In this document: piece by piece, positions 6,547-50,125 of the stretch
Position numbering within the stretch: the stretch's first letter is position 1
Layout of the letters: the number at the start of each line of letters is the position of its first letter
Assembly (NCBI GenBank): GCA_007751255.1
Contig: CP036296.1
Location: 4,588,001-4,652,000, forward strand
Length of the DNA stretch: 64,000 nt
Reading direction: 5' to 3'
Origin: Engelhardtia mirabilis
GTDB lineage: Bacteria; Planctomycetota; UBA1135; GCA-002686595
Translations under genes and position numbers: made by a program
The notes under the pieces: generated by a model
Told to the model about the DNA's origin: nothing
Database searches by the model: none
What the model saw: only the letters and a program-made list of their open reading frames with translations

Positions 6547-6623
6547 GGGAGCGACGGAGGATCTCGGTTCTTCTCGGGAGCGCCGCGGACGGCGCCGGTA
6601 ATTGGTTCAGGCGGGTCGCTCGA

Positions 6624-24625: not shown

Positions 24626-27493
24626 TCAGGGCCCGACGAAGGTCGAGGCGTTGCCCTCCGGCTGACCGTCGGCGTTGTACCAGGAGTCCAGCACCAGGCC
24701 GGTGCTCGGATTCGCCAGCAGCTCCGTCAGTGTGGTCCCCAGCGGCCCCGCCATGTTCAGGTCGCTCGCGCCGTCGCGCAGGAGGTCCGCCACACCCGGC
24801 GTCAAGAGCGGGTGGTTGTTGGAGGCGAAGCTGGTGCCCGTCTCGCTCACGATCCGGTCCAGGTCGTAGACGATGTCGGCCGGGTCGTAGACCGTCGACG
24901 GTGCCACGTTCAGCGGCTTGCGCTGGGGGTCGATGTCCAGCGGGTTGACCGGCGCCCCGCCGGCGTCGAACAGGAACATGCCCGAGCCCAGGCCGGCCAC
25001 CATGTGGACGAACATGGGCGAGTTCAGCTGGTTGCCCGGGTTGCGTCCGATGTGGTCCTGCAGCAAGGTCCAGTTGAGGCTGTCGTAATCGCCGGTCTGG
25101 ATCGCGGTGCGGAAGGAAGCGTACTCGGACCCGAAGTCGGTGATCGCGTCGTCGGTCAGGTGGCAGGCGACGCAGTACCGGGGCCCCTCGTTCTCGCTGT
25201 CGACCCGTCCGCGGATCGAGTGGGCCATCATCGCGTTGTGCGACAGGGCCGGGAAGTTCGCGCTCGGCGCGTTGCCGGCGACGTTGCGATCGGAGAAGGC
25301 GAAGACCTCGCTGCGAGCTCCGTTCAGGTCGTTGTAGCGGAAGAAGGTCTTGGTGTTCGCGCTCATCTGCGCGATCTCGCCGTTGTGGTCGACGCCGAGC
25401 TGGAACATCAACGGCGACTGGTAGACGAAGTCGGCGAACTTCTCCCGGAAGACGATCCTGTCCCCGGTGATGTTCGAGAAGTTGTTGCCCTGGTTGTACT
25501 CGCCCTCGAGGTGACAACCCATGCAGGTGTTGGTCCAGGAGGCGTGGCAGGTGGCGCAGTCCAACCGGTCCGTGTGGCTGAAGCCAGTCGCGACCCAGTC
25601 CTCTTGCTGCGGGCCGATGCCGGTGCTGGCCAATCCGTCGATGCGCCCCATGGCGTAGGAGGCGGAGGCCGAATAGACCGGCTCACTCCCGGGCACGGTG
25701 CTGAGCGGGTTGACGACCCCGTTGTCGACGATCGTGTCCAGGGTCTGCGGCACGAAGTGCTTCACGCCCGTCAGGCGGCTGTACAGGTACAGGTGCCCGT
25801 CGCCCTCGCGGCGCACGTGGCGCAGAACGTTGCCCTCGGTGTCCGTGGCGTGCTGGCCGGCCTGGCCGGCGTAACTCGTGCCCGCCACCGTCGGCGCGTA
25901 GGCAGTCGCCGTGCCGTGGCAGCTCTCACAGGCGATGGCCACGGCCTGCTCCTGCCGCGAGCGCAGCTCGGAGCGTCCGTCGCCCACCTTACCGCCGTGC
26001 AGGTCGTTGCTGCCGTGGCAGTCGATGCAACCCATCCCGGCCTCGTGGTGGACGTCCGGCGGGGTGTCGTCGCGCCCGTCGCCGTCGTAGTCCTCCTCCG
26101 CCAGGTACTGGCGGTGGTCACGGCCGTTGAACTCCTTGTTGCCCAGCACCGGATCGAACAGGCGCGTGTCGTTCTGGGTCGTGGTGAACGACACCGGGTT
26201 GGCCGGGTACTGGCGGTTCTTGCGCACGTTCTCGTTCTGGTCGAGGCGGATGCCCCAGTACTGCATCACCGTGCGGTTGGAGCCCTGGTGACAGCCGGCG
26301 CAGGTCAGGTCGTCCATGCCCTCGACGGTGGCGCCGTTGGACAGGGTCTTCTTGACGCTGACGATCTTGTGCGCGCGCACGTGGGCCCACTCGGGGTCGT
26401 CGATGTCGTCCGGATCCAGGGGTTCGAGCTTGTTGACGTGGGGGTCGAGACTCCCGCTGCGCCCGCCCAGGCTGTAGGGCATGTGGCAGGCCGTGCAGCC
26501 CGAGGAGCGGTAGTCGCCGGAGCGGTTGTTCGCACCGGCGCTGCCCAGGTGACAGTCGCCGCAGGTGAAGGCCACCTGCTCGTGGTACAGGTTCGCCAGC
26601 TCGGAGCCCGTCACCAGGCGCCCGTCCGCCTGCACGTCGTCGAGCAGGTTGGCGGCGTTGTAGGCCGCGTTGTTGTGGATCGCGTCCGGCGCCGGGTCGT
26701 TGCGCACGCTGAAGACCGGGTACTCGATCAGCTCTGAGACCTCGCCGATCTGCGCCGTGCCCAGGTTGAAGGCCGGGTCGACCACCGCGCGCCAGCCCAG
26801 GTCGGCGGCCGTGTCCTGCCACAGGTCGACGCTGGCCGGGACCTCGTTCTCGACGCCCGAGGCGAAGGACGCGCCCGAGAAGATCCCGCTCGAGGTGGCC
26901 AAGAGCGAGTGCGCCACCGAGTCCGAGTGGGGTGCGTGGCACTGACCACAACCCAGACCCGCCTCGGTGACCCGCAGGTCACCCGGGTTGATCCACTGCA
27001 GGTAGTCGAGCGCGGTATAGGTCGTGCCCCCCACCGTGTAGTCCGGGAACTTGTCGATCCCGACCAGGGTCAGGCGGTTGAAGTACGCCTGGGCGTTGAC
27101 GTCCTGAAAGTCGCGGTCGCCGATCTGCGGCGGCGGCGGCACGTGGGCGAGCTCCTTGGTGTCGCCCGCGACGTTGCCGCCGTGGCAGGTGGCGCAGTCC
27201 AGGTTCGCGGCGCCAGGGAAGGGGTGCGGGTTCTCGATGCCCGGTCCGGCGTAGTCGCCGGAGAGCGTGCCGTTGTGGCACAGCATGCAGCTGGTCGAGC
27301 TCTGAGGCGTCAGGCCCGCGGTGTCCCCACCGGCGCCCCCGCCGCAACCCGAGAGTGCGAGGGCCGCGAAGGCCAACAGCACCAGGGCCACGGCGACCAC
27401 GCGCACCAAGCCCGACTCCCGCTCGACGGCCGCTAGGCCCTCCAGCTCGGCGGTCGCCTCCACCGCGCCCTGCTCACCTGACAACTGCCCCAT
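24626..27493 (-). CDS. Undecahaem c-type cytochrome lipoprotein, putative outer-membrane terminal reductase
   Basis: The product carries eleven CXXCH haem sites (CMLCH, CATCH, CGQCH, CGDCH, CTACH, CAGCH, CIDCH, CESCH, CATCH, CMGCH, CVACH) in about 955 residues, after a lipobox (LALSGC). I prefer ATG 27493, which has AGGAG 9 nt upstream; TTG or GTG codons near 27407 would give a shorter signal. Nearly 200 haem-free residues form the C-terminus. As the last gene of the porin-cytochrome cluster it resembles the cell-surface cytochromes of porin-cytochrome conduits, which pass electrons to extracellular acceptors. No substrate-binding residues can be named. Confidence 0.85.
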   Translation of the reverse strand: MGQLSGEQGAVEATAELEGLAAVERESGLVRVVAVALVLLAFAALALSGCGGGAGGDTAGLTPQSSTSCMLCHNGTLSGDYAGPGIENPHPFPGAANLDCATCHGGNVAGDTKELAHVPPPPQIGDRDFQDVNAQAYFNRLTLVGIDKFPDYTVGGTTYTALDYLQWINPGDLRVTEAGLGCGQCHAPHSDSVAHSLLATSSGIFSGASFASGVENEVPASVDLWQDTAADLGWRAVVDPAFNLGTAQIGEVSELIEYPVFSVRNDPAPDAIHNNAAYNAANLLDDVQADGRLVTGSELANLYHEQVAFTCGDCHLGSAGANNRSGDYRSSGCTACHMPYSLGGRSGSLDPHVNKLEPLDPDDIDDPEWAHVRAHKIVSVKKTLSNGATVEGMDDLTCAGCHQGSNRTVMQYWGIRLDQNENVRKNRQYPANPVSFTTTQNDTRLFDPVLGNKEFNGRDHRQYLAEEDYDGDGRDDTPPDVHHEAGMGCIDCHGSNDLHGGKVGDGRSELRSRQEQAVAIACESCHGTATAYAPTVAGTSYAGQAGQHATDTEGNVLRHVRREGDGHLYLYSRLTGVKHFVPQTLDTIVDNGVVNPLSTVPGSEPVYSASASYAMGRIDGLASTGIGPQQEDWVATGFSHTDRLDCATCHASWTNTCMGCHLEGEYNQGNNFSNITGDRIVFREKFADFVYQSPLMFQLGVDHNGEIAQMSANTKTFFRYNDLNGARSEVFAFSDRNVAGNAPSANFPALSHNAMMAHSIRGRVDSENEGPRYCVACHLTDDAITDFGSEYASFRTAIQTGDYDSLNWTLLQDHIGRNPGNQLNSPMFVHMVAGLGSGMFLFDAGGAPVNPLDIDPQRKPLNVAPSTVYDPADIVYDLDRIVSETGTSFASNNHPLLTPGVADLLRDGASDLNMAGPLGTTLTELLANPSTGLVLDSWYNADGQPEGNASTFVGP

Positions 27494-27655
27494 GCCCAAG
27501 CGCTCCTGTCCCCTCTGCTGCCCTTCGGTACCCCCACGCGCCCCGACGCGCTGCCCCCGGGAGGTCTTCCGTTCGCCCTTCATCGGAGCTGCGGGACGGG
27601 CGCCTTGACCCGGACCCCCGCCCCGCGGGTACGGCTTGCGTGAAGGCGCGGGCGC

Positions 27656-28333
27656 TCAGAAGCCCTGGGCCGCCTGCCAGGTCGTGGGCAGGTGGCAGCG
27701 GTCGCAGTCATTGACCCAACCGAAGGCGAAGTGGTCCGGGTTCTGGGCCGTCAGCAGGTTGTCGTAGTGGCACGTCACGCACTCGATGTCCGTCGGCGTG
27801 AACTGCCCGACATCCGCCCCCGGGTGACAGCGACTGCAATCGGTGATCGCGTGGACGCCGTTGAGCGGGAAGCGCGTGCGCGAGTGGCGCTCGACCTGCC
27901 CCACCGGCAACCAGCTCATCTGCTGGTGGCAATCGGTGCAACGCGAGCCCAGCCGTCCCTGGTGCACGTCCTCGTGGCAGCCGCCGCAGCCGCGCTCCGC
28001 GAAGACCTGCACCGGTCCGCGGTCGTTGTGACAGCGCAGGCAGTGGGCGTCCAGGTGCGCGCCCTCGAGGGGCACGCCGGTCTCGGCCGCGTGGTCGAAC
28101 TCGAAGTCGTCCCGCAGGCTGTTCCAGTCGCTGCCGTCGTGGCACAGGGAGCAGTCGGTCGGGAACTGGTCGTGGGGAATCACCGGCCCCAAGCCCGCCC
28201 ACCAGCGATGCACTTCCAGGCCACCCGGGCGCTGCAAGGCGCAGGCGACCAAGAGGACCGTCGCGGCCAGGGCCAGGATCTGCGGGCGACCGTCGCGGAC
28301 CAGGGCCCGCCCGAGGCGTCTCAGAAGCTCCAT
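27656..28333 (-). CDS. Heptahaem c-type cytochrome lipoprotein
   Basis: The 225-residue product has a lipobox near residue 31 (VLLVAC) and seven CXXCH motifs (CSLCH, CLRCH, CGGCH, CTDCH, CSRCH, CVTCH, CDRCH). The haem pattern (GVPLEGAHLDAHCLRCH, GCGGCHEDVHQG, FPLNGVHAITDCSRCH) is the same module repeated in the 23-haem protein upstream. Its ATG lies inside the last codons of the barrel gene (13-nt overlap), so barrel and cytochrome are made together. By analogy with MtrA-like or OmaB-like subunits it could sit inside or beside the barrel; the lipid anchor could hold it to either membrane. Confidence 0.85.
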   Translation of the reverse strand: MELLRRLGRALVRDGRPQILALAATVLLVACALQRPGGLEVHRWWAGLGPVIPHDQFPTDCSLCHDGSDWNSLRDDFEFDHAAETGVPLEGAHLDAHCLRCHNDRGPVQVFAERGCGGCHEDVHQGRLGSRCTDCHQQMSWLPVGQVERHSRTRFPLNGVHAITDCSRCHPGADVGQFTPTDIECVTCHYDNLLTAQNPDHFAFGWVNDCDRCHLPTTWQAAQGF

Positions 28334-30069
28334 TGGGCGAAGACTCCCGCGGTCAGCCCGCGCTCGGTGTTGAAGATCGTGCCGTCCAGGTAGCCGCTGA
28401 CGGTCACGCCGCCACCGGCGCGCCAGGCCACCGAGGTACGCAGGCGGTGCTGGACGAAGTCGTCGTTGTTCTCGTCGAAGCCGACCTGGTCGTAGTTGGC
28501 CAGCTCGTAGAACAGGTCGAAGCTCAGGCTCTCGCCGCTCACGCCCAGGCTGGTGCGCGAGCCCGTCACGTCGGTGAACTCCCCCGCCGAGCCGAAGACC
28601 AGCACCCGCACGCGCGTGCCCGGCCCCATCAGGCCCTCGAGCTCCACGCCGAGCTCCGCGTCGCCGCCCTCGTCGTCGGCGTCCTCCCAGACCCCGAGCC
28701 GACCGACCAGTCGACTCTTGACCGGCATCGCGACCCAGAAGTCGCCGCCGAGCCGGTGGATACGCTCATCGGCCAACTGGGTGGCGAGGACGGGCGGAAG
28801 GAGCTCGTTACGGTCGAGCTCGGGGTAGCGCTGGTGCGCGTAGGTCAGGTCCAGTCCCCAGGACCGCCCGGTGTAGGGCGAGCTGGTCAGAAGCGCCTGG
28901 GTAACCTCGGCGCCGCTGCCCTTGGCCTCGTCGCTGGACGTGTACAGGTCGATCCAGAGCGTGCCGAAGGTCGTCCAACCCCGGCGCGGCAGGTAGTGCC
29001 CCTTGGCGACCACGAGGTCACGGTCGACCGCGCCGTCGTGCCAGGTCTTCTGGTAGCCGATCTGGGCCGAGGCCAGCTCGGTGGGATCGGAGACCCAGCG
29101 GTACCAGCCCGCGATCTCGAAGTCGTGACCGCTCTCGTAGTCCTGGTCCGGCTCGGGCATGAAGCCCGTGCTGACGCCGAAGGAGTGCGAGCCGTCCAGG
29201 CGCCGACTCCATTCGAAGCCGTCGACCACGCCGAACTCGGGCGCGCCTGTTTGCAGGAATCGCCCGACCTGCATGCGATCGCCCTCGAAGCGCGTGCCCC
29301 CGAGGGCGTAGGACAGGCGCTCCACCCGCAGCTGGCTGTAGGTGATGTCGTCCAGCTCCGGGCGGTTGAACTGCCGCCGGTCCCACTCGCCGCCGATGTC
29401 GAGGGTGCCGCCGCGACCGAAGACGTTGTCGAAGGTCAGGCGGCCACCGCTGCGCAGGAAACTCTCCGAGCGTCCTTCGTCGCTGGTGGCCGTGGCGTCG
29501 GCGGCCACGTAGTAGCGACCGGTGAAGCTGGCCCGGCGGTCCGCGGGTCGCACCGCCCGCGCGCCGGCGAGCAGGGGCATGTCCTGGGAGAAGCCGTCGT
29601 CCTCGTAGCTCCAGTCAGAGCTGTCACCGTCGTCCACGGGTTCGACGGCCTCGGCTTCCGGCTCCGGATCCTCGTCCACTGGCGCCGGCTCGGGCGCACC
29701 GAAGCGCTCGCCGGGCAGGATCGCCTGGCCCCGGGTGCCAGGGCTCGGCACGAAGTCCGCCAGGGACAGCTCGATCACCGCCGAGCGCTCGTCGACCTCG
29801 ACCACGCTGGCGCGATAGCGCCCGCCCTCGCGCGGCGTGAGCCAGATCGCGTCGCCGACCTCGAGCCCGTCGGCGCTGCCGCGATCGACCGTGGCGCGCC
29901 GGTCGCCGAGGCTCGCGGTCACCCGCAGGTCGACGACGACCTCGTCCTGGGCCTGTCGCGCGGCCCCCGCCGCGCGGGCCTCGATGCCGCGGGCCGTGGC
30001 AGGAGCTCCCAAGAGCGCCGCCCCCAACATCGCGGCACAAGCCGCCCCCCTGGCTCTTCGAGCTGTCAT
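28321..30069 (-). CDS. Outer-membrane beta-barrel, putative porin of an electron conduit
   Basis: The 582-residue product has a signal peptide and then an SH3-like small domain (about 45-120: VTASLGDRRATVDRGSADGL and VGDAIWLTPREGG). A Pro/Glu/Asp linker leads to a long run of alternating-hydrophobicity strands ending in FAQWSF. The terminal aromatic Phe is the outer-membrane barrel insertion signature. Strand pairs such as GTLDIGGEWDRRQFNRPELD and SVAWRAGGGVTVSGYLDG are visible. Position between a 23-haem and a 7-haem gene, with overlapping starts, identifies it as the porin of a porin-cytochrome complex. It is not recognisably MtrB or OmbB, and the N-terminal SH3-like domain is unusual for that role. 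Confidence 0.8.
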   Translation of the reverse strand: MTARRARGAACAAMLGAALLGAPATARGIEARAAGAARQAQDEVVVDLRVTASLGDRRATVDRGSADGLEVGDAIWLTPREGGRYRASVVEVDERSAVIELSLADFVPSPGTRGQAILPGERFGAPEPAPVDEDPEPEAEAVEPVDDGDSSDWSYEDDGFSQDMPLLAGARAVRPADRRASFTGRYYVAADATATSDEGRSESFLRSGGRLTFDNVFGRGGTLDIGGEWDRRQFNRPELDDITYSQLRVERLSYALGGTRFEGDRMQVGRFLQTGAPEFGVVDGFEWSRRLDGSHSFGVSTGFMPEPDQDYESGHDFEIAGWYRWVSDPTELASAQIGYQKTWHDGAVDRDLVVAKGHYLPRRGWTTFGTLWIDLYTSSDEAKGSGAEVTQALLTSSPYTGRSWGLDLTYAHQRYPELDRNELLPPVLATQLADERIHRLGGDFWVAMPVKSRLVGRLGVWEDADDEGGDAELGVELEGLMGPGTRVRVLVFGSAGEFTDVTGSRTSLGVSGESLSFDLFYELANYDQVGFDENNDDFVQHRLRTSVAWRAGGGVTVSGYLDGTIFNTERGLTAGVFAQWSF

Positions 30070-30090
30070 CGCGCGCCGCCCCTCGGGTCC

Positions 30091-32214
30091 CTATCGGTCT
30101 TCGCTCGCGCCACGCCGGAGGGAAGTCGCACGAACTCCGTGGCAATCGGTGCAGGCCGTGCCCAGCGGCTTGTAGCGGATCGCGGTGGTGCCGCGGATCT
30201 GCTCCGTGCGGTGGCACTGGGCGCAGTCGAGGGCCTCGTGGGTCTCGTCGAGCTTGAAGCTCGAGTCCCAGTCGTGATTGAAACGCAGGGCCGCGAAGGA
30301 CTTGGTGCTGCCGTGGCAACGGGCGCAGTCGATCGAGCCCGCCTGCTCGAATTGCGCGGCGTGGGGGTCGTCGTGGCAATCGGCGCAGGCCTTGCCCGCG
30401 GCCGGGCGCCAGGTCCGTCCGCTCTCCGTCGGCGGCCGCAGGGGCGCGTGGCACTGGGTGCAGCTCGCCTGGCCGTGGGCGCCGTCCAGCTTGAAGCCCG
30501 TCCACAGCCCGTGGTCGAAGCCGTGGGCCAGGTCGCGGAAGGAGCTGTCCACGTGGCAGCGGGCGCAGCCCTGGCGCTCGTCGAACAGCGCCGGCAGGCC
30601 GGCCTGGTCGAAGCGACCCTCGTGGGGATCGGCGTGGCAGGCGGCGCAGGATTGCCCCACCTCGGCCCCGCCGTGCAGGGTCGGGAGCTCGCCGTGTGCG
30701 GGCTCGACCCGTCCGAAGTGACGCCCCAACTCGTCGGCCTGGGAGCTCGGTCGGTGGCAGCTGTCGCAGCCCTCGGCTGCGTGGGCACCGGCCACGGGGA
30801 AGCCGGTCCAGCGACCGTGCTCGAACCCGTCGCGGTCCAGGTCACTGAACTCGGTCGCGCGGTGGCAGCGGGCGCAGTCGCCGTGCTCCAGCGGCGCGAG
30901 GGCCGCGGTGCGCAGGTCGAAGAAGCCGCTGTGGGCGTCTCCGTGGCAGGCGTCGCAGTCGTTGTCGGTGCCGCGAAACAGGCGCGGCAGGTCGGGCTCC
31001 GCGGCCACGTGGCACTGCTCGCAGTCGGTGGCCAAGTGGCTGCCCTCCAGGGGCAGGCTGGTCCGCGCGTGCAGCGCCGTGTCGAAGCCGTGGGGCTCGA
31101 ACCGCTCGCGCCCGTGGCAGGCCACGCAACCCTCGGCCGCAAAGGGCCCGGACTCGAACTGCCCCCCGTGGGGATCCGCATGGCAGGCCGCGCAGGCGTC
31201 GCGCTCGCGGCCGGGGTAGCGCTGCGCGAAGCCGTCCAGGTGCGGCTCGTGGCATTGGGCGCAGGTCACGTCCGCGTGGGGAGCTTCCAGGGGGAACCCG
31301 GAGAGGCCGTGCTGCGCGTCGCTGAGCTCGAGCCCCTCGTCGCGGAAGCTGCGGTGCTCGCTCGCGTGGCAGGTGTCGCAGCTGCGCGCCAGGCCCAGTC
31401 CGGCGAGGCGGGCGTTGCCCACCGCGAAGCCGGCCCCATGGGGCGAATCGTGGCAATCCGTGCAGGCCCGCGCGTCGGGCAGACTGCCCCCGCCTGCGAC
31501 CACCTCGAGGGCGTGGTCGTCACCCTCGCCGTGGCAATCGCGACAGGAGAGGCCCCCGTGCCCGCCCACGAGCTTCAGGTGCTCGTCGTGCCCGCGCGAC
31601 CAGTGCTGCTCGAAGGACGCCTGTACGTGGCAGTCGTTGCAGGTGCGGCCCAGGGCGCCGTCGTGCTCGTCCTCGTGGCAACTCACGCAGCGTTGGCTGA
31701 GCCCGATGAAGCGCGTGGCGCCCTCCGGCAGCACCTCGTCCTGCGCGTGGGCGTGGCACTCGGTGCAGTCGAGCTCCAGGTGCGCGCCCTCCATGCGAAA
31801 GCCGATCGAGGCGTGGTCGAAGGCCTGGATGTCGTCGACGCCGGCCTTGGCGAAGGACAGCTCGTTGACCATCGCGAAACCCGCGCCGTGGTGGTCGGAG
31901 TGGCAGCTCGCGCAGCGGCGCTGCTCCTCGGGGAGCTGGCCGTGCAGGCCCTGGCCGGAGTCGAGCTGCTTCTCGATCGGGGTGTGGCAGTCGAGGCAGG
32001 CGGCGGCCATGTCCTGGAACCAACCGCCGTGGCAGGCGGAGCAATCGTTCGCCCCGGCCAGCTCGGGCACACGCGAGTGCACCGAGGCCAGGGGCCCGGG
32101 CGAGCTGCGGCCGGTGTCGACCACGGCCATGGCCATCACCGCCACGGCGCTGCACAGGGCCACCCACAGGCTCGGCCGGCCCAGCCGCTTGGCCAGGGAG
32201 CTCGCTTCGCTCAC
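30091..32214 (-). CDS. 23-haem c-type cytochrome with N-terminal membrane anchor
   Basis: Starting at GTG 32214 (GTGA overlap with the upstream gene) the product has 707 residues. One N-terminal hydrophobic segment lies at about 16-33 (WVALCSAVAVMAMAVV), then there are 23 CXXCH sites, one per about 30 residues. A module of roughly 60-70 residues recurs: TGFPL/GAH, C..CH, then C..CHxDPHxG and a further C..CH (for example CAACHADPHGG, CVACH, CEQCH). High-density haem wires of this sort carry electrons across the periplasm. The single helix could be an uncleaved inner-membrane anchor or a signal peptide. Confidence 0.9.
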   Translation of the reverse strand: MSEASSLAKRLGRPSLWVALCSAVAVMAMAVVDTGRSSPGPLASVHSRVPELAGANDCSACHGGWFQDMAAACLDCHTPIEKQLDSGQGLHGQLPEEQRRCASCHSDHHGAGFAMVNELSFAKAGVDDIQAFDHASIGFRMEGAHLELDCTECHAHAQDEVLPEGATRFIGLSQRCVSCHEDEHDGALGRTCNDCHVQASFEQHWSRGHDEHLKLVGGHGGLSCRDCHGEGDDHALEVVAGGGSLPDARACTDCHDSPHGAGFAVGNARLAGLGLARSCDTCHASEHRSFRDEGLELSDAQHGLSGFPLEAPHADVTCAQCHEPHLDGFAQRYPGRERDACAACHADPHGGQFESGPFAAEGCVACHGRERFEPHGFDTALHARTSLPLEGSHLATDCEQCHVAAEPDLPRLFRGTDNDCDACHGDAHSGFFDLRTAALAPLEHGDCARCHRATEFSDLDRDGFEHGRWTGFPVAGAHAAEGCDSCHRPSSQADELGRHFGRVEPAHGELPTLHGGAEVGQSCAACHADPHEGRFDQAGLPALFDERQGCARCHVDSSFRDLAHGFDHGLWTGFKLDGAHGQASCTQCHAPLRPPTESGRTWRPAAGKACADCHDDPHAAQFEQAGSIDCARCHGSTKSFAALRFNHDWDSSFKLDETHEALDCAQCHRTEQIRGTTAIRYKPLGTACTDCHGVRATSLRRGASEDR

Positions 32215-34439
32215 GTGAGGCCCCCGTCGAAGAGGTGGGCCCCGTAGGCCAGGGCGTAGACCACGTGGATCGCGATCAGCGCGAGCAAGAGCACCGCCGC
32301 CCAGCGGTGCAGCCAGCGCCAACTCTCCATCAGGCCGCGCAGGTCGTCGATGTGCGCGGTGGCCAGGGCCGCGCGGTGGGCGGAGCGCGCCAGGCCGGTG
32401 ACCTCGTCGATCTGATCGGACGCGAGGCCCGCCACCAGCCCCTCGTGGCGCACCTGGCGCAACAGGCGCCGCAAGCCCGTCTCGGCGCCGACGAGCGCCA
32501 AGAGCCGCGCGGGCAGGCTGGCCTTCCACTGACGCCGCTCGACCAGTCCGCCCACCTCGTCGCGCACCAACGCCGCCAGCCGCGGGTGCACGCGGTCGAA
32601 GCCCTCGGCCACCCGCGTCAGGCGCCCGCGCAGCTCCGCCAGCTCGAGCTCGCGACCATTGGCGGCGCGGGGCACGTAGGCGTAGAGGTAGCGCCCGATG
32701 GCACCGGTCGCGAACAGCGCCGCCAGGGCCCAGAAGGCGTGGCCGCCGACCGTGTCGCGCGGTTGCATGCCGCCGTGCAAGAGGGCCGCGAGCAGGGCCA
32801 GCACCCCCGTCGCCACGTGCAGCGTCATCCAACCGGCCAGGGAACCCAGGCGCAGGGGGAAGCGCGGACTGCGGCGCAGGATGTAGAGCAGGTTGGCGAG
32901 CACCAGGGCGATCGAGCCGACGCCGAGCCACAGGCCCAGGCCCAGGCCCGGGCGCAGCTCGTCGTGCTTGGTGTGGGCCGCGCGCAGGCCGGCGGGCAGG
33001 GTGTAGTAGTCCCGGTGCCACAGGGCGAAGGCCAGGCCGAGCAGCGCGATCACGAAGCCGGCGGCTAGGGCCTTGACCAGGCCCGTGCCCTGTTCGCCGA
33101 GGGCCGCGGCAGCCGGCCGCAGGGCGGGATCGAAGGAGACGCCTGCGGCCTCGAGTTGGGCGATCGGCGGCGTGCCCCCGACCATCACGAAGACCGCGTC
33201 GGTGGGCAGCACCAACTCCTCGCGCGCGCCGTCCGCACCGACGCTCAGACGCACCTGACCCTCGTCGATCGCGAGCACCTGGCTCTCGAACAGGGCGCGC
33301 ACGCGGCCCTCGGCGATGGCGGCGGCGATGCGGCGCTCGTTGGACGGCTTGAGCCGGAACAGCTCCGCGCGGCGGTAGGACAGGGTGACGTCGTTGGCGC
33401 CGCGCGCGGTCAGACCCAGGGCCGCCTCGACCGCGCTGTCGCCGCCGCCGACGACCAGGATCCGGCGCCCCTCCCAGGCGTCGGCGTCGAGCAGGCTGTA
33501 GGCCACCCAGGGGCGATCCTCACCGGGCACGCCCAGGCGGTTCGGCAGGCCGCGCCGGCCGATGGCGAGGCACACGTTGCGGGCCCGGCGCGGGCCTTTG
33601 CTGGTGCGAACCTCGAACAGGCCGTCCGCGCTGCGCTCGACGCCCTCGAAGGTCACGCCGCACTCCACCGGCAGCTCGTGGTCGCGGGCCAGGGACTGCC
33701 ACAGCTCGATCAGCTCTTCCTTGAGGTAGGTGCGCTGGGGCAGGCGGCCGTGCAGGGGCAGGTCGATGGGCTGGGTCGCGACCAGCTTGCGGCGCGGGTA
33801 GCGCGCGACGGTGCCGCCGACGTCGGACTCGCGCTCGAGCAGCGCGAAGTCCAGGCCCAGGCGACGCGCCTCCAAGGCGCAGGCCAGGCCGCCGGGCCCG
33901 GCGCCCACGATCACGAGGTCGAGGGCATTTGGGGCCCGCTCGCCGCCGACTCGCTCGGCCACCGTCCGGGCCACGAGCACGCCGTGGTCCACGGCCGTCT
34001 TGACCAGGGCGTGGGCGGTCACCTCGCCGGCTAGGAACAGCCCCCGCTGACCCACCGCCTCGAGCCCCTCGTCGAGCACCGGCACGTCGCGCCGCGTGGC
34101 CAGGTCGGTCAGGGTCACGGTGATCGCGCCCGTCGGGCATTCGCGCGCGCAGGCGGCCGTGCCGACGCAGCCCGAACCGCGCACCACCACCGCCTGGCCG
34201 TGCAGGAGGTCGAGCACGCCCTCCTCGGGGCAGGCCCGTACGCAGGTGCCGCAGCCCAGGCAACGGGTCAGGTCCACCACCGGATGCTGCAACTCGGCCG
34301 CGGCCGCGCCCGTGCGCTCGGCCTTGTGCCGCGCGCGCAGGGTCTGGTGCTGTTCGCGCCGGTCGACGCGGCGCAGGGCCACGCCGCCCAGCGCGGCGCC
34401 GAGGGCCGCGACCAGGCCGATCAAGACAGCCCAGCCCAT
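32211..34439 (-). CDS. Membrane oxidoreductase: ferredoxin-FAD/NAD(P)-cytochrome b fusion
   Basis: This 742-residue protein fuses several modules. An N-terminal membrane helix (4-22) precedes a ferredoxin-like region with C60xxC63xxC66xxxC70P and C91xxTxxC97xxxC101P. A TrxB/YpdA-like flavoprotein has FAD GAGPGG at 169-174 and a second nucleotide-binding VVGGGDSAVEAA near 320. The membrane part has helices near 445-463, 490-511, 527-546, 557-577 and 708-730, with candidate haem ligands His531, His545, His557, His711 and His725. It could transfer electrons between NAD(P)H or ferredoxin, the quinone pool and the 23-haem protein whose gene overlaps its stop. Confidence 0.8.
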   Translation of the reverse strand: MGWAVLIGLVAALGAALGGVALRRVDRREQHQTLRARHKAERTGAAAAELQHPVVDLTRCLGCGTCVRACPEEGVLDLLHGQAVVVRGSGCVGTAACARECPTGAITVTLTDLATRRDVPVLDEGLEAVGQRGLFLAGEVTAHALVKTAVDHGVLVARTVAERVGGERAPNALDLVIVGAGPGGLACALEARRLGLDFALLERESDVGGTVARYPRRKLVATQPIDLPLHGRLPQRTYLKEELIELWQSLARDHELPVECGVTFEGVERSADGLFEVRTSKGPRRARNVCLAIGRRGLPNRLGVPGEDRPWVAYSLLDADAWEGRRILVVGGGDSAVEAALGLTARGANDVTLSYRRAELFRLKPSNERRIAAAIAEGRVRALFESQVLAIDEGQVRLSVGADGAREELVLPTDAVFVMVGGTPPIAQLEAAGVSFDPALRPAAAALGEQGTGLVKALAAGFVIALLGLAFALWHRDYYTLPAGLRAAHTKHDELRPGLGLGLWLGVGSIALVLANLLYILRRSPRFPLRLGSLAGWMTLHVATGVLALLAALLHGGMQPRDTVGGHAFWALAALFATGAIGRYLYAYVPRAANGRELELAELRGRLTRVAEGFDRVHPRLAALVRDEVGGLVERRQWKASLPARLLALVGAETGLRRLLRQVRHEGLVAGLASDQIDEVTGLARSAHRAALATAHIDDLRGLMESWRWLHRWAAVLLLALIAIHVVYALAYGAHLFDGGLT

Positions 34440-37569: not shown

Positions 37570-39609
37570 TCAGGCCGCGGACTTGTCGAGCGCGGGCTCG
37601 ATCGCCTCGAGCTTCGGTCGGCGCTCTTCGCCGCGCGTTCGCGCCTCGACCTTGGCCCGGTACCAGACCACGACGCCCAGGGCGCAGATGGCCCACTGCA
37701 GGCCGTAGTAGGTCCACAGGGCCCGCGCGATGCCGCTGGTGAAGCCGTAGCTGTGCAGTCCGACCCCGAGCAGGTTCACGCCCCACCAGGAGAAGGCCAC
37801 CACGCTCCCGCCGAAGGCGGCGGCGACGCAGATGCCCAGCTCCTTGAGGTGTCCGCCCATGCGCCCGTGCAGGATCGCCGTCATCGTCAAGCAGATCAGC
37901 AGGGCGCCGTTCTCCTTGGGGTCCCAGCCCCAGAAGCGGCCCCAGGAGTCGTTGGCCCACAGGCCGCCGAGGATCGTGCCCACCAGGCTGAACAGGAGGC
38001 CGAAGCAGAGGGTGCCGTAGACCATCCGCGCCAAGGCGCGGAAGGTCTCGGGCGCGGCGTCGCGGCGACGCAACAGGCGCATCACCACGTAGGCGCTGCC
38101 CAGGAGCGCGGCCAGCATGCCCGCGGCGTAGCCGATCGTGATCGAGGTCACGTGGGTCGCCAGCCAGAAGTTGGTGTCGAGCACCGCCACCAGCTCGGGC
38201 ATGGTGTCCTTGGCGTCGAGCTTCTCGTAGCCGGAGGCCAGGAACAGACCCACGGCGCCCAGCGCGGCGGCCGCCGAAGCGGCGATGCGGCGGCGATCGA
38301 TGGCCTCGGTGACCAGGGCCAGGAGCACCGCCGTCGCGGTCACGAACAGCACGGTCTCGTAGAGGGTGCTGACCGGCGGGCGGCCGCGGATCACGCAGCG
38401 CACGGCGATGGCGAGGGTGAGCAGGGCCAAGCCGGTCCAGGCCAGCGTGGTGCAGAGGCGATAGGGCAGGCGAGCCTTGGGCCGCAGCCAAGTGGCCGTG
38501 GCGGCGACGAAGGCCACCAGGAACGCCATCAGGGCCCACATCAGCGGCTTCGCGCCGTAGTAGCTGCGCTCGAGGTCGAGCTTGCCGGCCTCGCCGCGCG
38601 CCTCGGCCGCCGCGCGCGTGCTGGCGGTCAAGAGCGCCAGGGCCGACTCCGCCGAATCGTTGTCGATGGCCGCCGCCAGGGCTTCGAAGCCGCGCAGGGC
38701 CGCGAGTTCGGCTTCGGAGGCCGGCGCGCCGTCCAGGGCCGCGGTCAGGATGTCGCCCGGCGTGCGCCACTCGGGCGCTTCGTCGGCGCTGCCCGCGGGC
38801 GGCACCAGGGCCAGGCCGTCGGCCGAGCGGCCCAGCTCGGCGGCCAGGCGCAGCACGCCGTCGATGCCGCGCAGCTCCTCCCGCTCGAGGGGGTCGTCGC
38901 TGGTGCTGAGGGTGCGGTAGAGCTGCCCCACCGCCGGCGCGGCGGCGACCAGCTCCGAGAAGTGAGCGCGACCGCTGTCCGCGCCGAGCAGCTCCGCCAG
39001 GGCGCTGTCGCGCACCACAGGCAGCTCGACCCGCGCGAAGTCCAGGAAGCCGCCCAGGTCCAGGAACTGATCCACGGCCTCGGCCAGTTGCACCGTCTGC
39101 TGTTGGGTGGCGCTGCGCTGAGGGGCCTCGATGCGGCTCCAGTCGTGGGCCAGCTCGAACAGGCGCGGCAGGGCCGGACGCAGCTCGTCGAAGCTCCAAC
39201 GCGCGCGGCGCTTCTTGAGCGAGCCATCGAGGCCGATGGCGTCGATGGCCGCGCTCTCGGCGACGAGGAACAACGGCAGGCGCGCCGCCGACTCCGGCCG
39301 CACCAGGGTCTCGAGCAGGAAGGCGTCGGGGCCCAGACGCTCGCCCGCGGCGTCTTCCACCGAGCGTCGACCCGCCAGACGCAGCAGGGTGAAGCCGGCG
39401 TGGGTCGAGAGCGGCTTGACGCGACCGCCCGCTTGGATCGGCAGGGCGCCGAGCGCGTCGAGGGCGGCCTCGGACCAGCGCTCATGGACGACCGCGGGCG
39501 TCAGCGGTCCATGGGGCGCGCCGTGGGGCCCCATGTCGACCCCGCCCTGGGCGGCGAGCGGCAGCGCCAGCGCCACCGTCGCGATCAGTCCTCGCACCAG
39601 CCCGGTCAC
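37570..39609 (-). CDS. ccsA: Cytochrome c biogenesis protein CcsA (System II), with large N-terminal extension
   Basis: Starting at GTG 39609 (GTGA overlap with resB) the product is 679 residues. The C-terminal half is a polytopic membrane protein with the WWD haem-handling loop WGRFWGWDPKENGA and conserved His residues (LWANDSWG, THVTSITIGYA, GVGLHSYGF). This is the CcsA/ResC signature of System II cytochrome c maturation, which delivers haem to CXXCH apoproteins. The N-terminal 330 residues or so are soluble and periplasmic after a signal-like helix (GLIATVALALPLAAQG), a longer ectodomain than in typical CcsA. It is essential for the multihaem cytochromes encoded nearby. Confidence 0.93.
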   Translation of the reverse strand: MTGLVRGLIATVALALPLAAQGGVDMGPHGAPHGPLTPAVVHERWSEAALDALGALPIQAGGRVKPLSTHAGFTLLRLAGRRSVEDAAGERLGPDAFLLETLVRPESAARLPLFLVAESAAIDAIGLDGSLKKRRARWSFDELRPALPRLFELAHDWSRIEAPQRSATQQQTVQLAEAVDQFLDLGGFLDFARVELPVVRDSALAELLGADSGRAHFSELVAAAPAVGQLYRTLSTSDDPLEREELRGIDGVLRLAAELGRSADGLALVPPAGSADEAPEWRTPGDILTAALDGAPASEAELAALRGFEALAAAIDNDSAESALALLTASTRAAAEARGEAGKLDLERSYYGAKPLMWALMAFLVAFVAATATWLRPKARLPYRLCTTLAWTGLALLTLAIAVRCVIRGRPPVSTLYETVLFVTATAVLLALVTEAIDRRRIAASAAAALGAVGLFLASGYEKLDAKDTMPELVAVLDTNFWLATHVTSITIGYAAGMLAALLGSAYVVMRLLRRRDAAPETFRALARMVYGTLCFGLLFSLVGTILGGLWANDSWGRFWGWDPKENGALLICLTMTAILHGRMGGHLKELGICVAAAFGGSVVAFSWWGVNLLGVGLHSYGFTSGIARALWTYYGLQWAICALGVVVWYRAKVEARTRGEERRPKLEAIEPALDKSAA

Positions 39610-40766
39610 CGCGCCACCTCCCGGCGCACGTGGCGCGCGAGCTTGCGCCCGAAGTGGAACAGCAGCCCGCCCGCGATCACCAGGCACGAGTAGAGCGGCC
39701 ATTGGTCGGCGGGGTTGCGGACCACCGCGAGGGTCGAGAAGAGCCGGTCCCCCGGGCGCGCGTTGCCCGGTCCCCAGGAGGCTTGGTAGAGCACCAGCCC
39801 GGCCTCGCGCAGGGGCCGGTTCATGGAGATCGTCACCGGCCGCTCGCCGCTGCCGTCGTCCACGCTGACGTCGCTCGAGAACCAGGCCGGCATGTTGGTG
39901 CCCGGGTGGTCCTCCTTGGTGAACTCGTCGAGCCGCACCTCGAAGGGCATCGGGAAGCGCTGGCGCCGCAGGTCGAGGACGAAGCGCGCGCCGCCCACGT
40001 CGACGGTCCAGGGCGCGGCGTCGTAGGCCCACAACAGGCCCACCTGCCGCCGACCGTCGGCGCCGGTGACCGCCACGTAGGCGCCGGGGCCGTTGCGCTC
40101 GGCCTGGGGTGAGAGGGGCTCTGCGCGCAGGAAGAACCCGTCCACCACCGGCACGTCCACGTCGAACATCGGGCCCTTGGGGCTGACGTTCGCGTTGTCG
40201 AACCAGTGGGTGACCTCGAGGCGGAAGGGCAGGCCCGAAGCCACGACCGGCGCCGCGCTCGTCGCGCCGCGCAGGGAGTCGCCGGGCAGGATGCGCTCGG
40301 TGTGCCGACCGGCCGGATCGACCGAGATCACCGCCAGCTCCGTCTCGGTGTAGCTCTGGAACCAGGCGGCCGTGTCGCCCTCGTAGAGCGTCACGTGGCC
40401 CTCCTCGCCGGTGGCGTACTTCACGAAGCCCGCCACGAGCATCAGCACCATGCCCAGGTGCGCCACCAGCACGCCCGCCGTCCCCGCGCCGCGCCGCAGG
40501 CGCACGACGCCGCCCAGGATCAAGTTGACGAACAACAGCCCCATCACCAGCCCGCCGCCCGGCAGGGGGATCGGGACGCCGCCCGCCTCGTGGATCAGGT
40601 AGCTCGACTCGAAGTAGCGCTTCTGGACCTCGTACAGGCCGTGTTCCGCCTGCTCGAGGGTCCCCAGGAAAGTCAGCAGCGCCAACAGGCAGATCAACAC
40701 CCCCGCCAGGGAGATCGACGACAGGACCGCGACCAGGCGCGCGGATCCGCTGGACAGGACCTTCAC
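39606..40766 (-). CDS. resB: Cytochrome c biogenesis protein ResB (Ccs1)
   Basis: This 386-residue protein starts at GTG 40766 in a 4-nt overlap with the preceding lipoprotein gene. It shows the ResB pattern: SISLAGVLICLLALLTFLGT, YFESSYLIH, LGMVLMLVAGFVKYATGEEG, then a long periplasmic domain and a last helix (LYSCLVIAGGLLFHFGRKLA). LVLYQASWGPGN is the ResB loop before the last helix. With CcsA it forms the System II synthetase that ligates haem to cytochrome c. GTGA overlaps at both ends make one translational unit. Confidence 0.92.
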   Translation of the reverse strand: MKVLSSGSARLVAVLSSISLAGVLICLLALLTFLGTLEQAEHGLYEVQKRYFESSYLIHEAGGVPIPLPGGGLVMGLLFVNLILGGVVRLRRGAGTAGVLVAHLGMVLMLVAGFVKYATGEEGHVTLYEGDTAAWFQSYTETELAVISVDPAGRHTERILPGDSLRGATSAAPVVASGLPFRLEVTHWFDNANVSPKGPMFDVDVPVVDGFFLRAEPLSPQAERNGPGAYVAVTGADGRRQVGLLWAYDAAPWTVDVGGARFVLDLRRQRFPMPFEVRLDEFTKEDHPGTNMPAWFSSDVSVDDGSGERPVTISMNRPLREAGLVLYQASWGPGNARPGDRLFSTLAVVRNPADQWPLYSCLVIAGGLLFHFGRKLARHVRREVAR

Positions 40767-41923
40767 CGGCTGGTCTCCAGGCTGGCGACGAAGGCGCGGA
40801 AGCGCTCGCGCTCGGGCGCCGCGGCGTCGCGCGGTCCGACCAGCTTGACGAAGACGGTGCTGCCCTCGAGCGAGGCCACCGCGCCGAGCATCAGCGCCTC
40901 GTCGTGGGTCTGTCCCGACATGCCCTCGAAGGCACCCTCGATCTCGATCAGGATCGCGGTCGAGCCCAGGCACGGCACGCGCTCGAGCGAGGCCAGGGCC
41001 GCGTCGTCCAGCGGCGCGAGACCCATCTGCCCGCGCCAGCGATCGAAATTGGAGCGGATCCCGCCCCCATCGCCCCCCAGCACGCTGATGTAGCACTCGA
41101 CCGATCCGGCGGGATCGGTGGTGAACGTCACCTCGCGCATCATGCGCGGCGGACCTTGGACCCAACCCTCGGGAGCGCTCCAGGTCAGTGGTCCGCCGGC
41201 CGGACTCGGCGCGGCGGTCGCGCTCGGAGCCCCGCCCAGGGACTCCGCCAGGCGCTCGAAGGCGAGCAGTTCCGCCTCGACCACGTCGGCGGGTCCGACG
41301 AACTTCAAGAACGCCGAGCCCCCGCTGTCGACCGCGAGCAGGCCCACCATGCGGAAGCCCTCGCCGCCGCCACCAGCCATGCCCGAGTAGCTCCCCGCGA
41401 AGTCGACCCGCGTGGCCGGGCGCCCCAGCAGCGATCCGGACGGCAGGCTCTGGAACTCCGACTCGGTCAGGTTCGAGAGGCCCATCTGCCCACGCCAGCG
41501 ATCGATGTTCGCCCGCAGTCCCCCGCCCTCGCCGGGCAGCAGCGTCAGGCTGCAGTCGGCGCGCTCGTCGCGCGCCACGCGCAGGTTGAGGGTCCTCATC
41601 GAGGTCGGCGCCAGGGCCAACCATCCGTCGGGCAGCTCGAAGTCCGGTCCGCTCGCCATCGACGGCACCCCGCTGGCGACCGCCGCCGGCTCGAAGCCGA
41701 AGCGCCGCGCCGGGCTGGCTCCCACCTCGAGCTGGTCCCCTTGGAACGGCCGCGCTTCACCGATCGCGACCGTGCGTGAACCCTCGTCCGCTCCGCAACC
41801 CACCAGCGACGAGCAGAGCATGACCCCCACCGTCACTTGCAACAGGACCACGCCGCCGAGGAGCGCCGCTTCCATGCGCCGCACCGGCTCGACCGTCCCC
41901 GCGCCCGACTGCTCGATTCCCAT
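40763..41923 (-). CDS. Lipoprotein with two copies of an unknown domain, first gene of the resB-ccsA operon
   Basis: From ATG 41923 the product has 386 residues; ATG 41875 would give a shorter lipoprotein signal and is possible. The lipobox is SSLVGC. The mature chain holds two homologous halves of about 140 residues. Each has a beta-rich start (DFELPDGWLALAP; GPLTWSAPEGWVQG), then RANIDRWRGQMGLSNL or RSNFDRWRGQMGLAPL, and a C-terminal AFLKFVGP or VFVKLVGP. I do not recognise the domain. Its stop overlaps resB by 4 nt, so a role in cytochrome c maturation or in sensing its state is a testable inference. Confidence 0.7.
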   Translation of the reverse strand: MGIEQSGAGTVEPVRRMEAALLGGVVLLQVTVGVMLCSSLVGCGADEGSRTVAIGEARPFQGDQLEVGASPARRFGFEPAAVASGVPSMASGPDFELPDGWLALAPTSMRTLNLRVARDERADCSLTLLPGEGGGLRANIDRWRGQMGLSNLTESEFQSLPSGSLLGRPATRVDFAGSYSGMAGGGGEGFRMVGLLAVDSGGSAFLKFVGPADVVEAELLAFERLAESLGGAPSATAAPSPAGGPLTWSAPEGWVQGPPRMMREVTFTTDPAGSVECYISVLGGDGGGIRSNFDRWRGQMGLAPLDDAALASLERVPCLGSTAILIEIEGAFEGMSGQTHDEALMLGAVASLEGSTVFVKLVGPRDAAAPERERFRAFVASLETSR

Positions 41924-42082: not shown

Positions 42083-43024
42083 TCAGCGCACGAGCGGGAA
42101 GACCGCGTCGCGCGCGAGCCAGCCGCGGGTGCCGTCGCGGCGCTCGATGCGGACCCAATCCGGTAGCTCGTCGATGCGTTGGGCGACTTCGCCGGCTGAG
42201 ACCTCGCCGATGGCCGGCCGGCCCTCGAGGGGCTCGGCGCGCACCGTGGTGGTCCCCTTCCTGACGACCATCACCGGGTCGTCGACCCCGTGCAGGGAGT
42301 GGTGGGCCAGGGGCACGGCCCCGGCGGCCGCCGCGAGCACGGCCAGGGCCACGGCCAGTCGCCAAGCGCGACCGCCGCGCACGGCCTCGCCCAAGAGGGC
42401 CACGAGCAGCGGGCCCAGGGCCAGCAGCGCCAACCAACGGGCCTCGGACGGCGTGATCAGGTCGAGGCCCTCGCCCACCGACGCGGCGAAGTCGTCCTCC
42501 AACTCCGTGTCGAGCTCGGCGGCGCGACGCGCCAGGGCCAGGTTGGCCCGGGTGTCGAGGCTGCGCGGCGCGTGGCGCAGGGCCGCCAGGTACCAACCCA
42601 TGGCTTCGAGCGGCCGCTCCAGGCGGAAGGCGGCGTTGCCCAGGTTGTGGAGCAGGGCGTGGCGATCGAGGATGCGCTCACGCCCGCGCAGGCTGGCGGC
42701 GCTCGACTTCGACTCGGCCAGCACGTCGAGCCAACGGCCCTCGGCGATCGCGTACTCGCCCCGGCGCCAGGCCTCGACGCCCTCGTCGAAGCGCCGCGCC
42801 AGGGCGCCGAGTTGCAGCTCGTAGGGATCCGGCGCCGGCGCGGCGGGGACCGCCGCTGCGGTCGCCGTCGGAGTCGCGGGAGCGGACCCATCCAGCAGTT
42901 CGGGGCCACCGGGGACCAGGGCGTCGTCGTCCAGGGTCGGATCGATCCCACCCCCCTGGGCCCGGGCCACGGCAGGTAGCAGGACGATCGCGAGCAACGC
43001 CAGGATTCGAAGCTTCGTGTTCAC
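42083..43024 (-). CDS. BatE-like protein: TPR, membrane span and SH3-like domain
   Basis: The 313-residue product starts at GTG 43024 inside the GTGA overlap with batD. It has a signal peptide (LRILALLAIVLLPAVARAQG), TPR helices (RHALLHNLGNAAFRLERPLE, AMGWYLAALRHAPRS), membrane segments around 195-240 and a C-terminal SH3b-like domain (VVRKGTTTVRAEPL, ELPDWVRIERRDGTRGWLAR). This is the BatE arrangement, and the gene is last in the Bat operon, as usual. The Bat system has been tied to oxidative-stress tolerance or envelope stability; its mechanism is not settled. Confidence 0.85.
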   Translation of the reverse strand: MNTKLRILALLAIVLLPAVARAQGGGIDPTLDDDALVPGGPELLDGSAPATPTATAAAVPAAPAPDPYELQLGALARRFDEGVEAWRRGEYAIAEGRWLDVLAESKSSAASLRGRERILDRHALLHNLGNAAFRLERPLEAMGWYLAALRHAPRSLDTRANLALARRAAELDTELEDDFAASVGEGLDLITPSEARWLALLALGPLLVALLGEAVRGGRAWRLAVALAVLAAAAGAVPLAHHSLHGVDDPVMVVRKGTTTVRAEPLEGRPAIGEVSAGEVAQRIDELPDWVRIERRDGTRGWLARDAVFPLVR

Positions 43025-46052: not shown

Positions 46053-47092
46053 TGGACACCTGCCGGGTTCTTGCGCCCGCGCTCGCGCAGGGCGGATTCC
46101 GCGATGGCCAGGGCCAGGGCCAGGGCCAGGGGCCATTGGTAGCGGTCGTAGGGCACGCGCCGCACGCCGTCCTCGAGCTCGCGCGACTCGAGGCCGGCGA
46201 TGCGCTTGCGATAGAGCGTCTCGAGCGGCGTGGGCGAGCCTTCGGTCGACAGGTACGCGCCGCCGGTGACCTCGGCCAGGGCTTCGAGGGTCTCGCCCGA
46301 CAGGCGCGAGGAGACCTCCACGCCGTCGGGCCCGACCAGGAAGGACTCGCGGCCATCGGGACCTGTGACCGGGATCTTGCCCCCGTCGCTGGTGCCGACG
46401 CCGACCACGAAGACGCGAATGCCACTCGCGGCGGCGCGCTCGGCTACGGCGCGCCCGCGGCCCTCCAGATCCTCGCCGTCGGTGATCAGGACGATCGCCT
46501 CGCTGGCGCCGGTGCGCCCGTCGAAGAGGTCGAGGGCGCGCTCCAGGGCCACGCCGAGGTCGGTGCCGCCGACGCGGTTGTCGTCCACCTGCACGCGACT
46601 CAGTAGGTCGCGCAGGGCCTCGCGGTCGGTGGTCAGGGGCGCGACCTGGCGCGCGTCCCCGGCGAAGGCCAACAGCGCGACGCGGTCATTGGAAAGCTGG
46701 TCCAGGAGGCCGGAGACCTCGCGCTTGGCGCGGTTCAGTCGGTCCGGACGCAGGTCGCGCGCGAGCATCGAGCGCGAAGTGTCGATCGCGATCACCAGGT
46801 CCACCCCGCTGGACATCACCGCGCGCTCCGCGTAGCCCAGGACCGGACCGGCGAGGGCCACGCCGCCGGCCAGCAGCGCGCCCGCGGCCAGGGCCGCGCG
46901 CAGCAGCCGCCGCGTCGCGGAGAACTCACTTGCCGCCGCCTCGCGCAGGCTCGGTGAGAAGACCAGGCCGAGGGCCCGCCGCGCGCGCAGGATCGCGAAG
47001 GGCGCCAGGGCCAAGAGCGCCAGGCCGCCCAGGGCGATCAGGCCGTCCGTGGGCCGCAGCCAGTCGATTCCTAGGAAGCTGGCGGCGATCAC
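46049..47092 (-). CDS. batB: VWA-domain membrane protein (BatB-like)
   Basis: The 347-residue product starts at GTG 47092 (GTGA overlap). Two N-terminal helices (GLIALGGLALLALAPFAILR and LLRAALAAGALLAGGVALAG) precede a von Willebrand A domain with a complete MIDAS: DTSRSM, GGTDLG and TDGED. The domain continues to VSSRLSGETLEALAEVTGGA. A final helix (WPLALALALAIAES) closes the protein. VWA proteins of the Bat system are thought to work with MoxR AAA+ ATPases as metal-dependent adaptors. The two VWA proteins of this operon are adjacent and similar, consistent with BatA and BatB. Confidence 0.88.
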   Translation of the reverse strand: MIAASFLGIDWLRPTDGLIALGGLALLALAPFAILRARRALGLVFSPSLREAAASEFSATRRLLRAALAAGALLAGGVALAGPVLGYAERAVMSSGVDLVIAIDTSRSMLARDLRPDRLNRAKREVSGLLDQLSNDRVALLAFAGDARQVAPLTTDREALRDLLSRVQVDDNRVGGTDLGVALERALDLFDGRTGASEAIVLITDGEDLEGRGRAVAERAAASGIRVFVVGVGTSDGGKIPVTGPDGRESFLVGPDGVEVSSRLSGETLEALAEVTGGAYLSTEGSPTPLETLYRKRIAGLESRELEDGVRRVPYDRYQWPLALALALAIAESALRERGRKNPAGVQ

Positions 47093-50104: not shown

Positions 50105-50125
50105 CGGTTTCCTCAGTCCGGCGGG

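Follow-up and report, generated by a model that had tools for sequence, protein, structure and literature searches.

Among described porin-cytochrome systems, the closest to the locus reported here are the PCC3 clusters, catalogued since 2017, in which a porin is encoded together with two cytochromes, one periplasmic with 21-27 haems and one extracellular and multihaem, and with a di-haem-b protein that has five helices in the inner membrane (He et al. 2017, PMC5566968; PMC10734462). The periplasmic cytochrome carries 21, 24 or 27 haems and is said in PMC10734462 possibly to span the periplasm, and the inner-membrane protein of PCC3 and PCC4 is recognised by two WX3HX13H motifs and an [ST]GXXG motif (PMC5566968). 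PCC3 is still termed functionally unverified in PMC12442390, and the literature covered here establishes no electron donor for it. We analysed a 64,000-nucleotide stretch of the planctomycete Engelhardtia mirabilis (contig CP036296.1, positions 4,588,001 to 4,652,000; hereafter the window), whose minus strand carries at 24626-34439 (from 34439 down to 24626 in gene order) a cluster of five genes, E-D-C-B-A, predicted to encode a flavoprotein fused to a cytochrome b-like membrane domain, a 23-haem cytochrome, an outer-membrane barrel and two multihaem lipoproteins. Sequence comparison makes a variant of PCC3, not a separate category, the best reading of this cluster, and the flavoprotein association, fused here into one protein, offers a concrete candidate for the donor and direction of PCC3.

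Profile comparison pairs the membrane domain of E with the inner-membrane proteins of seven proteobacterial PCC3 clusters (probability 99.2, E = 2e-19) and D with five PCC3 periplasmic cytochromes over 547 columns (hhalign probability 100, E = 1e-65), a score that is inflated by CXXCH density but in which the flanking motifs align as well; by these profiles both are homologous to their PCC3 counterparts. D lies within the PCC3 limits of 21-27 haems and 22-39 residues per haem (23 and 30.7), E has both WX3HX13H motifs and a TGAIG (T for S) but as part of a fusion and not as a separate gene, and C supplies the porin-like barrel (22 strands in its AlphaFold2 model), homology to PCC3 porins not being a condition stated in the description by He et al. 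(PMC5566968). A first-pass annotation made from the letters alone had recognised an extracellular electron-transfer conduit, a reading that PCC3 homology and synteny support in kind, but had taken the composition to be undescribed, which is not supported, since it resembles the PCC3 description and D and the membrane domain of E are homologous to PCC3 parts. The likeness covers the long periplasmic cytochrome (mostly 23 or 26 haems in planctomycete D, against 21, 24 or 27), the porin and further cytochrome in one cluster, and the same iron-sulphur (Fe-S)/FAD gene adjoining, or one open reading frame (ORF) from, seven proteobacterial clusters found with that module. The differences nevertheless appear real: in the planctomycete cluster one chain unites the inner-membrane protein with an Fe-S/FAD/NAD(P)H module, the 22-strand C looks unrelated to five PCC3 porins by profile, D apparently retains an N-terminal anchor helix, and a 7-haem lipoprotein, B, with an 11-haem ExtM-like one, A, replaces the single large extracellular cytochrome.

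Other conduits are more distant. The cluster shares with MtrCAB, MtoAB, PioAB and DmsE a working plan of periplasmic wire, barrel and further cytochrome, but D has 23 haems rather than 10 and scores 61 bits (E = 1e-16) against the DmsE-family model TIGR03508, whose cut-off is 192.2. Membership in MtrCAB was rejected on this score together with the lack of any MtrB/PioB or OmcA/MtrC family match (for A and B, no OmcA/MtrC match in NCBIfam at E 0.1), so the earlier descriptions of D as a 23-haem link in place of a decahaem, and of the set as conduit-like yet distinct from MtrCAB, hold. D also matches chain A of 6r2q, which we take to be MtrA although the depositor's label differs, and scores 52 bits against the MtrC/MtrF domain II/IV model PF22113, above the Pfam cut-off of 30, whereas A (28) and B (19.5) fall below it. 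As in PCC4 and the Geobacter ext cluster, A resembles ExtM (NCBIfam NF040943, E = 3e-22), but at 78.5 bits against a cut-off of 800 it was rejected as a member, and the 4- and 5-haem partners of the ext cluster have no counterpart in the planctomycete one. A further aligns with the 10-haem protein of a PCC4-like locus, L183 (23% over 815 positions, E = 4e-27), and these scores support homology of A to both proteins. L183 likewise contains an FAD/Fe-S redox gene, and further redox genes are mentioned by He et al. in PCC4 and similar clusters (PMC5566968); the L183 redox protein (L183:9446-11848) also matches CRP-like nucleotide-binding models. Porin-multihaem cytochrome clusters of Verrucomicrobia, a related phylum, likewise place a porin beside multihaem cytochromes, but their periplasmic cytochrome is described as having 8 haems (PMC5615132).

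Gene E (32211-34439, 742 aa) is predicted to combine an N-terminal helix, a ferredoxin-like Fe-S domain, a thioredoxin-reductase-like FAD/NAD(P)H domain and a di-haem-b membrane domain, as its earlier designation as a membrane flavoprotein/cytochrome b implied. Its Pfam matches are Fer4_10 and Pyr_redox_3 (PF13738, E = 6e-40), and the FAD/NAD(P)H domain is closest to YpdA-type thioredoxin reductases. The Fe-S domain (34110-34283, residues 53-110) contains a CxxCxxCxxxCP motif and a second motif with three Cys, and the membrane domain (32214-33083, residues 453-742) has TGAIG at 578 and WX3HX13H at 537 and 707; of the five helices expected there, four exceed the hydropathy threshold used. Within the FAD/NAD(P)H domain (33111-33920, residues 174-443), the nucleotide-binding GGGD and Y355, R356 and R362 are invariant across 22 aligned homologues (the row of L047 is disturbed by N). 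Because these residues lie near the site of the arginines that hold the 2'-phosphate in NADPH-specific relatives, NADPH rather than NADH would be the donor. At residue 94, the position of the absent second Cys of the second Fe-S motif, 16 of the 22 homologues have His and the others V, I or T, and the second site may be His-ligated or a three-iron cluster.

Gene D (30091-32214, 707 aa) begins at a GTG that overlaps the stop of E; an ORF of 976 aa was set aside as an over-extension. A hydrophobic helix at residues 14-35 (32110-32175) is present in relatives also and is followed by an invariant PG motif, and it is apparently kept uncleaved as a membrane anchor; of the membrane anchoring claimed at first pass the helix itself is confirmed. 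In 33 aligned sequences, drawn from 52 uncut ones and including all 27 with 23 haems, the invariant His outside CXXCH number 23, matching the haems. The haem counts of related and therefore non-independent sequences cluster at intervals of three: among the 52 (relatives and window) there are 27 with 23 haems, 21 with 26, three with 29 and one with 20, and among 31 uncut sequences from a species scan of planctomycetes, some from the same organisms, 19 with 23, ten with 26, and one each with 20 and 22. Each of the six aligned 26-haem rows has exactly three extra haems, inserted at a single site that follows residue 356 in two rows and lies near 507-516 in the other four. D thus appears to lengthen in three-haem steps, L112 excepted. 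D-like proteins outside the planctomycetes (n = 22) have 20 haems in 14 cases, 23 in five, 19 in two and 17 in one. MtrA accommodates 10 haems in roughly 80 Å, and by that precedent a 23-haem D could reach about 180 Å.

Gene C (28321-30069, 582 aa) is, on its AlphaFold2 model (mean predicted local distance difference test score 84.4; predicted template modelling score, pTM, 0.74), an outer-membrane beta-barrel, whose 22 strands start at residue 181 and finish at the C-terminal Phe. The first-pass annotation had described a barrel with terminal Phe and an SH3-like N-terminal domain; the barrel stands, and for the latter the model shows no more than a small beta domain near the N terminus (residues 43-119, 29713-29943), possibly SH3-like. 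C was also expected to be an uncommon porin, and it matched no family in Pfam or NCBIfam, libraries in which an MtrB/PioB model is presumably present. A fold search gave 277 matches at E 0.001 or better, the best 50 of which are ushers and porins with no MtrB chain recognised among them, and tblastn at E 1e-5 found no C in plasmid records. Among 392 genomes of the phylum, the barrel model matches 72 at E 0.001 and 44 at E 1e-23 or better; matches of E 2e-11 or weaker span model positions 6-144 only, that is, the N-terminal part. That part alone is matched weakly in many planctomycete genomes, and the domain at residues 43-119 may be a general module.

B (27656-28333, 225 aa) and A (24626-27583, 985 aa as an ORF) are predicted lipoproteins of 7 and 11 haems, with invariant lipobox Cys at residues 31 and 80, respectively; because the lipobox Cys of A lies so far into the ORF, its true start is probably further downstream. 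Invariant His outside CXXCH again equal the haems, 7 in B (23 of 26 seven-haem sequences aligned) and 11 in A (all 22 uncut sequences, with four more nearly invariant). D, B and A would thus each have one candidate distal His per haem, and since every haem has a candidate ligand, no coordination site is evidently free, which favours a conducting over a catalytic role. Both lipoproteins may act at the extracellular face.

The coding evidence agrees with this layout. The first-pass account of five overlapping or closely spaced minus-strand genes is matched by the coordinates: E and D overlap by 4 bases and C and B by 13, and the gaps are 21 bases between D and C and 72 between B and the ORF of A. 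Its count of 41 CXXCH motifs was reproduced by recounting (23 in D, 7 in B and 11 in A), and six-frame translation of the whole window gave none outside these genes. Chance density was ruled out by a control of 200 six-frame trials under a first-order Markov model of the 9.8-kb cluster (mean 0.59, maximum 3). In all five genes G+C content is 0.91-0.95 at third and 0.48-0.54 at second codon positions, which is consistent with genuine coding frames.

The arrangement is not unique to the window, as relatives carry the same set. In a set of 61 genomes, made up of the window's own and 60 relatives, 40 have a barrel match, and 61 of the 67 matching places were examined, the window included (short ones are among the six left out). 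Of these loci, 39 had enough flank (a barrel preceded by over 4.8 kb and followed by over 1.5 kb), and in all 39 the genes run E-D-C-B on one strand, followed in 15 by A; the survey of co-occurrence proposed at first pass therefore finds the cytochromes syntenic, not dispersed. Outside the 39, E follows B in L124. The two halves of E share one ORF in 49 of the 61 barrel loci, and ten of the other 12 are accounted for by contig ends (eight without E in the stretch and two cut), the last two being L065, with two overlapping ORFs, and L066. In the species scan, E is fused in 36 of the 38 planctomycete loci; in one of the remaining two it is cut, and in the other, L129, it is split.

Two types of cluster can be distinguished. 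In type 1, B has 7 haems in all 24 A-bearing loci and A has 11 in all 22 uncut ones; type 2 is without A and its B has 10-27 haems. Two A-less loci with a seven-haem B and one with a one-haem B stub are contig-truncated. A barrel tree from a quick search places the 24 A-bearing loci and five contig-truncated ones in a single group with support 100. The window's own genome also has a type 2 cluster (L021; D with 26 haems, B with 22). Of the 24 genomes in which a locus carries A, 17 have a type 2 locus as well, two of the 17 being typed by the barrel tree where the contig ends. The cultured strain Poly30 (CP036434.1) has both types, with three predicted ORFs between B and A of type 1. In L062 (1357-5894), three successive B-like cytochromes of 25, 18 and 12 haems follow the barrel.

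The flavoprotein module also occurs beside PCC3 clusters elsewhere. When 150 genomes from the order of an Azonexaceae metagenome-assembled genome were searched with the E alignment, seven matched the Fe-S/FAD half strongly, at E values under 1e-120. In all seven loci (L172 and L175-L180) an inner-membrane protein with both motifs adjoins a 24- or 27-haem cytochrome, and the second cytochrome has 11-89 haems; the flavoprotein gene is adjacent to the PCC3 cluster in six and one ORF away in L172. Five have a barrel candidate of 715-894 aa, and in two the stretch ends within a candidate. The 89 CXXCH of L172 (4618-11781; contig JAAXVL010000004.1 of the Azonexaceae metagenome-assembled genome) lie in one ORF of 2387 aa within the PCC3 cluster; the largest haem number known to He et al. 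in 2017 was 85 (PMC5566968), and PMC12133095 gives up to 86. The species scan with the E alignment, at one genome per species, returned at least 585 stretches; a relative is encoded in 566 of them, and the 80 best were retained. Among the 42 loci taken as non-planctomycete (45 less L129, L140 and L142; a few are titled only "bacterium"), 29 have a two-motif inner-membrane protein, 26 a cytochrome of at least 15 haems, 27 a match to the barrel at E under 0.001 (confined in some to the N-terminal domain) and 18 all three, and in three the Fe-S/FAD module is fused to the membrane half. By record title, an inner-membrane protein with a large cytochrome is found in Acidobacteria, Calditrichota, Neomarinimicrobiota, Zixibacteria, Krumholzibacteriota, Bacteroidetes, Gemmatimonadetes, Anaeromyxobacter, deltaproteobacteria and Azonexaceae. 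Related clusters thus extend over a large part of one planctomycete order and, by these titles, about ten other lineages.

On the homology, the motifs, the distal His for each haem and the conserved operon, all of them read from sequence, we lean modestly towards an NADPH-fed, outward trans-envelope conduit of PCC3 type, leading from E through D to C, B and A and on to an extracellular acceptor. NADPH would be oxidised at the FAD in the cytoplasmic part of E, and electrons would pass through two Fe-S clusters to a pair of haems b, and by these through the inner membrane to D, which, held to that membrane by one helix, would form a bis-histidine 23-haem wire across the periplasm, probably long enough to cross it and enter the barrel C. 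B and A would then hand the electrons to Fe(III), a humic substance or another outside oxidant. We infer the donor, the direction, the position of D inside C, the face occupied by B and A, and the acceptor; that a flavin/Fe-S module is fused or adjacent across distant lineages suggests it as the electron donor of the PCC3 class.

Several observations weigh against this reading. C shows no detectable similarity to five proteobacterial PCC3 porins (hhalign probability 1.6), a result that leaves unrelatedness unproven. For D, the predicted structure has a pTM of 0.40, a fold search of the model against the PDB gave no match, and the expectation that its ends are much more conserved than its middle yielded to a slight difference (0.525, 0.462 and 0.496); in L112, where E is also broken, the 22 haems of D break the rule of threes. 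In L129, outside the 39 flanked loci, the halves of E are two genes and the barrel follows B, and L066, of type 2, has the membrane half alone (253 aa, 6296-7057), with no flavoprotein half in the stretch. Of the 42 non-planctomycete loci, 13 are without a two-motif inner-membrane protein, and these misses include short contigs but also two long stretches, L154 and L165. The proteobacterial and other-phylum loci were, moreover, chosen by their flavoprotein and give no unbiased rate of the module in PCC3 clusters. Published views of PCC3 also point elsewhere: He et al. proposed quinone exchange by the inner-membrane protein (PMC5566968), and most discussion of PCC3 concerns the oxidation of Fe(II), which implies inward flow.

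If the quinone proposal applies here, the conduit would be the same but the menaquinone pool would feed, or be fed, at the b haems, leaving the flavoprotein a regulatory role or another acceptor. The two haems b predicted in the FRD/cytochrome-b-like domain of E, the two MqnA/D-family (PF02621) genes of the genome and the solitary membrane half of L066 fit such a model, yet a quinone-only model needs no flavin/Fe-S module, and the module is fused or adjacent in distant lineages. In proteins that join FRD and NAD(P)H domains, such as NOX and ferric reductases, NAD(P)H supplies the electrons and no quinone takes part, and we consider menaquinone exchange at E unlikely. An inward conduit, oxidising extracellular Fe(II) or another donor, draws on the presence of PCC3 in Fe(II) oxidisers (PMC5566968) and on one PCC3 inner-membrane gene that was raised in iron-oxidising cells of Sideroxydans CL21 (PMC12442390), whereas in Sideroxydans ES-1 PCC3 was down-regulated on Fe(II) (PMC8788666); the published expression data thus point both ways. 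Electron transfer from Fe(II) to NADP+ across an inside-negative membrane would be strongly uphill, and inward flow seems to us very improbable.

One could also envision outward flow serving assimilation or redox disposal, with Fe(III) reduced for uptake or excess NADPH shed at low oxygen, an account that overlaps the NADPH-fed outward conduit and is set apart by its purpose alone. A route fed by NADPH would, in the absence of a proton pump, conserve no energy, and two cluster versions in one genome (17 of 24) suggest specialised uses; however, no iron-uptake family was found among 20 neighbouring ORFs scanned, several of which had no match of any kind. We hold this purpose to be rather doubtful. 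Beyond the window, the NADPH-fed outward conduit raises the possibility, which we offer tentatively and with less than even confidence, that the PCC3-type conduits of many phyla are a quinone-independent class, in which an NADPH-flavin/Fe-S/di-haem-b reductase is wired to the surface by one bridge protein whose reach is tuned by three-haem modules, the donor being revealed by the planctomycete fusion. If this is true, the periplasmic shuttles of Mtr-type systems would not be needed, as one protein would link the inner membrane to the outer.

A link between PCC3 and a flavoprotein may already have been published elsewhere. The terms flavo-, FAD and ferredoxin are absent from the main text of PMC5566968, FAD was not found in PMC12442390, PMC12016527 and PMC13386937 and occurs once in PMC10734462, and PMC8788666 was searched for PCC3 only. 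For Planctomycetes with porin, multihaem cytochrome or extracellular electron transfer, no title or abstract described the cluster, most subscription papers and all preprints lying outside the search; the portions covered of PMC7399161, PMC10654088, PMC12133095 and PMC6295460 hold nothing on the planctomycete conduit. He et al. name Planctomycetes once, in PCC4 subgroup II (PMC5566968).

The surroundings of the cluster had been described as supplying menaquinone and haem ligation. A CcsA-type cytochrome c assembly domain (37753-38370, minus strand; PF01578, E = 3e-26) and a ResB-like ORF (39606-41624, minus strand; PF05140, E = 2e-16) are indeed neighbours, but mqnD is not, the sole PF02621 match in the window lying 22 kb off at 2031-2798. 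Elsewhere in the window there are a predicted tRNA-Sec at 11169-11266 and, at 43021-51121, BatD-like, VWA, DUF58 and MoxR-type AAA genes close together.

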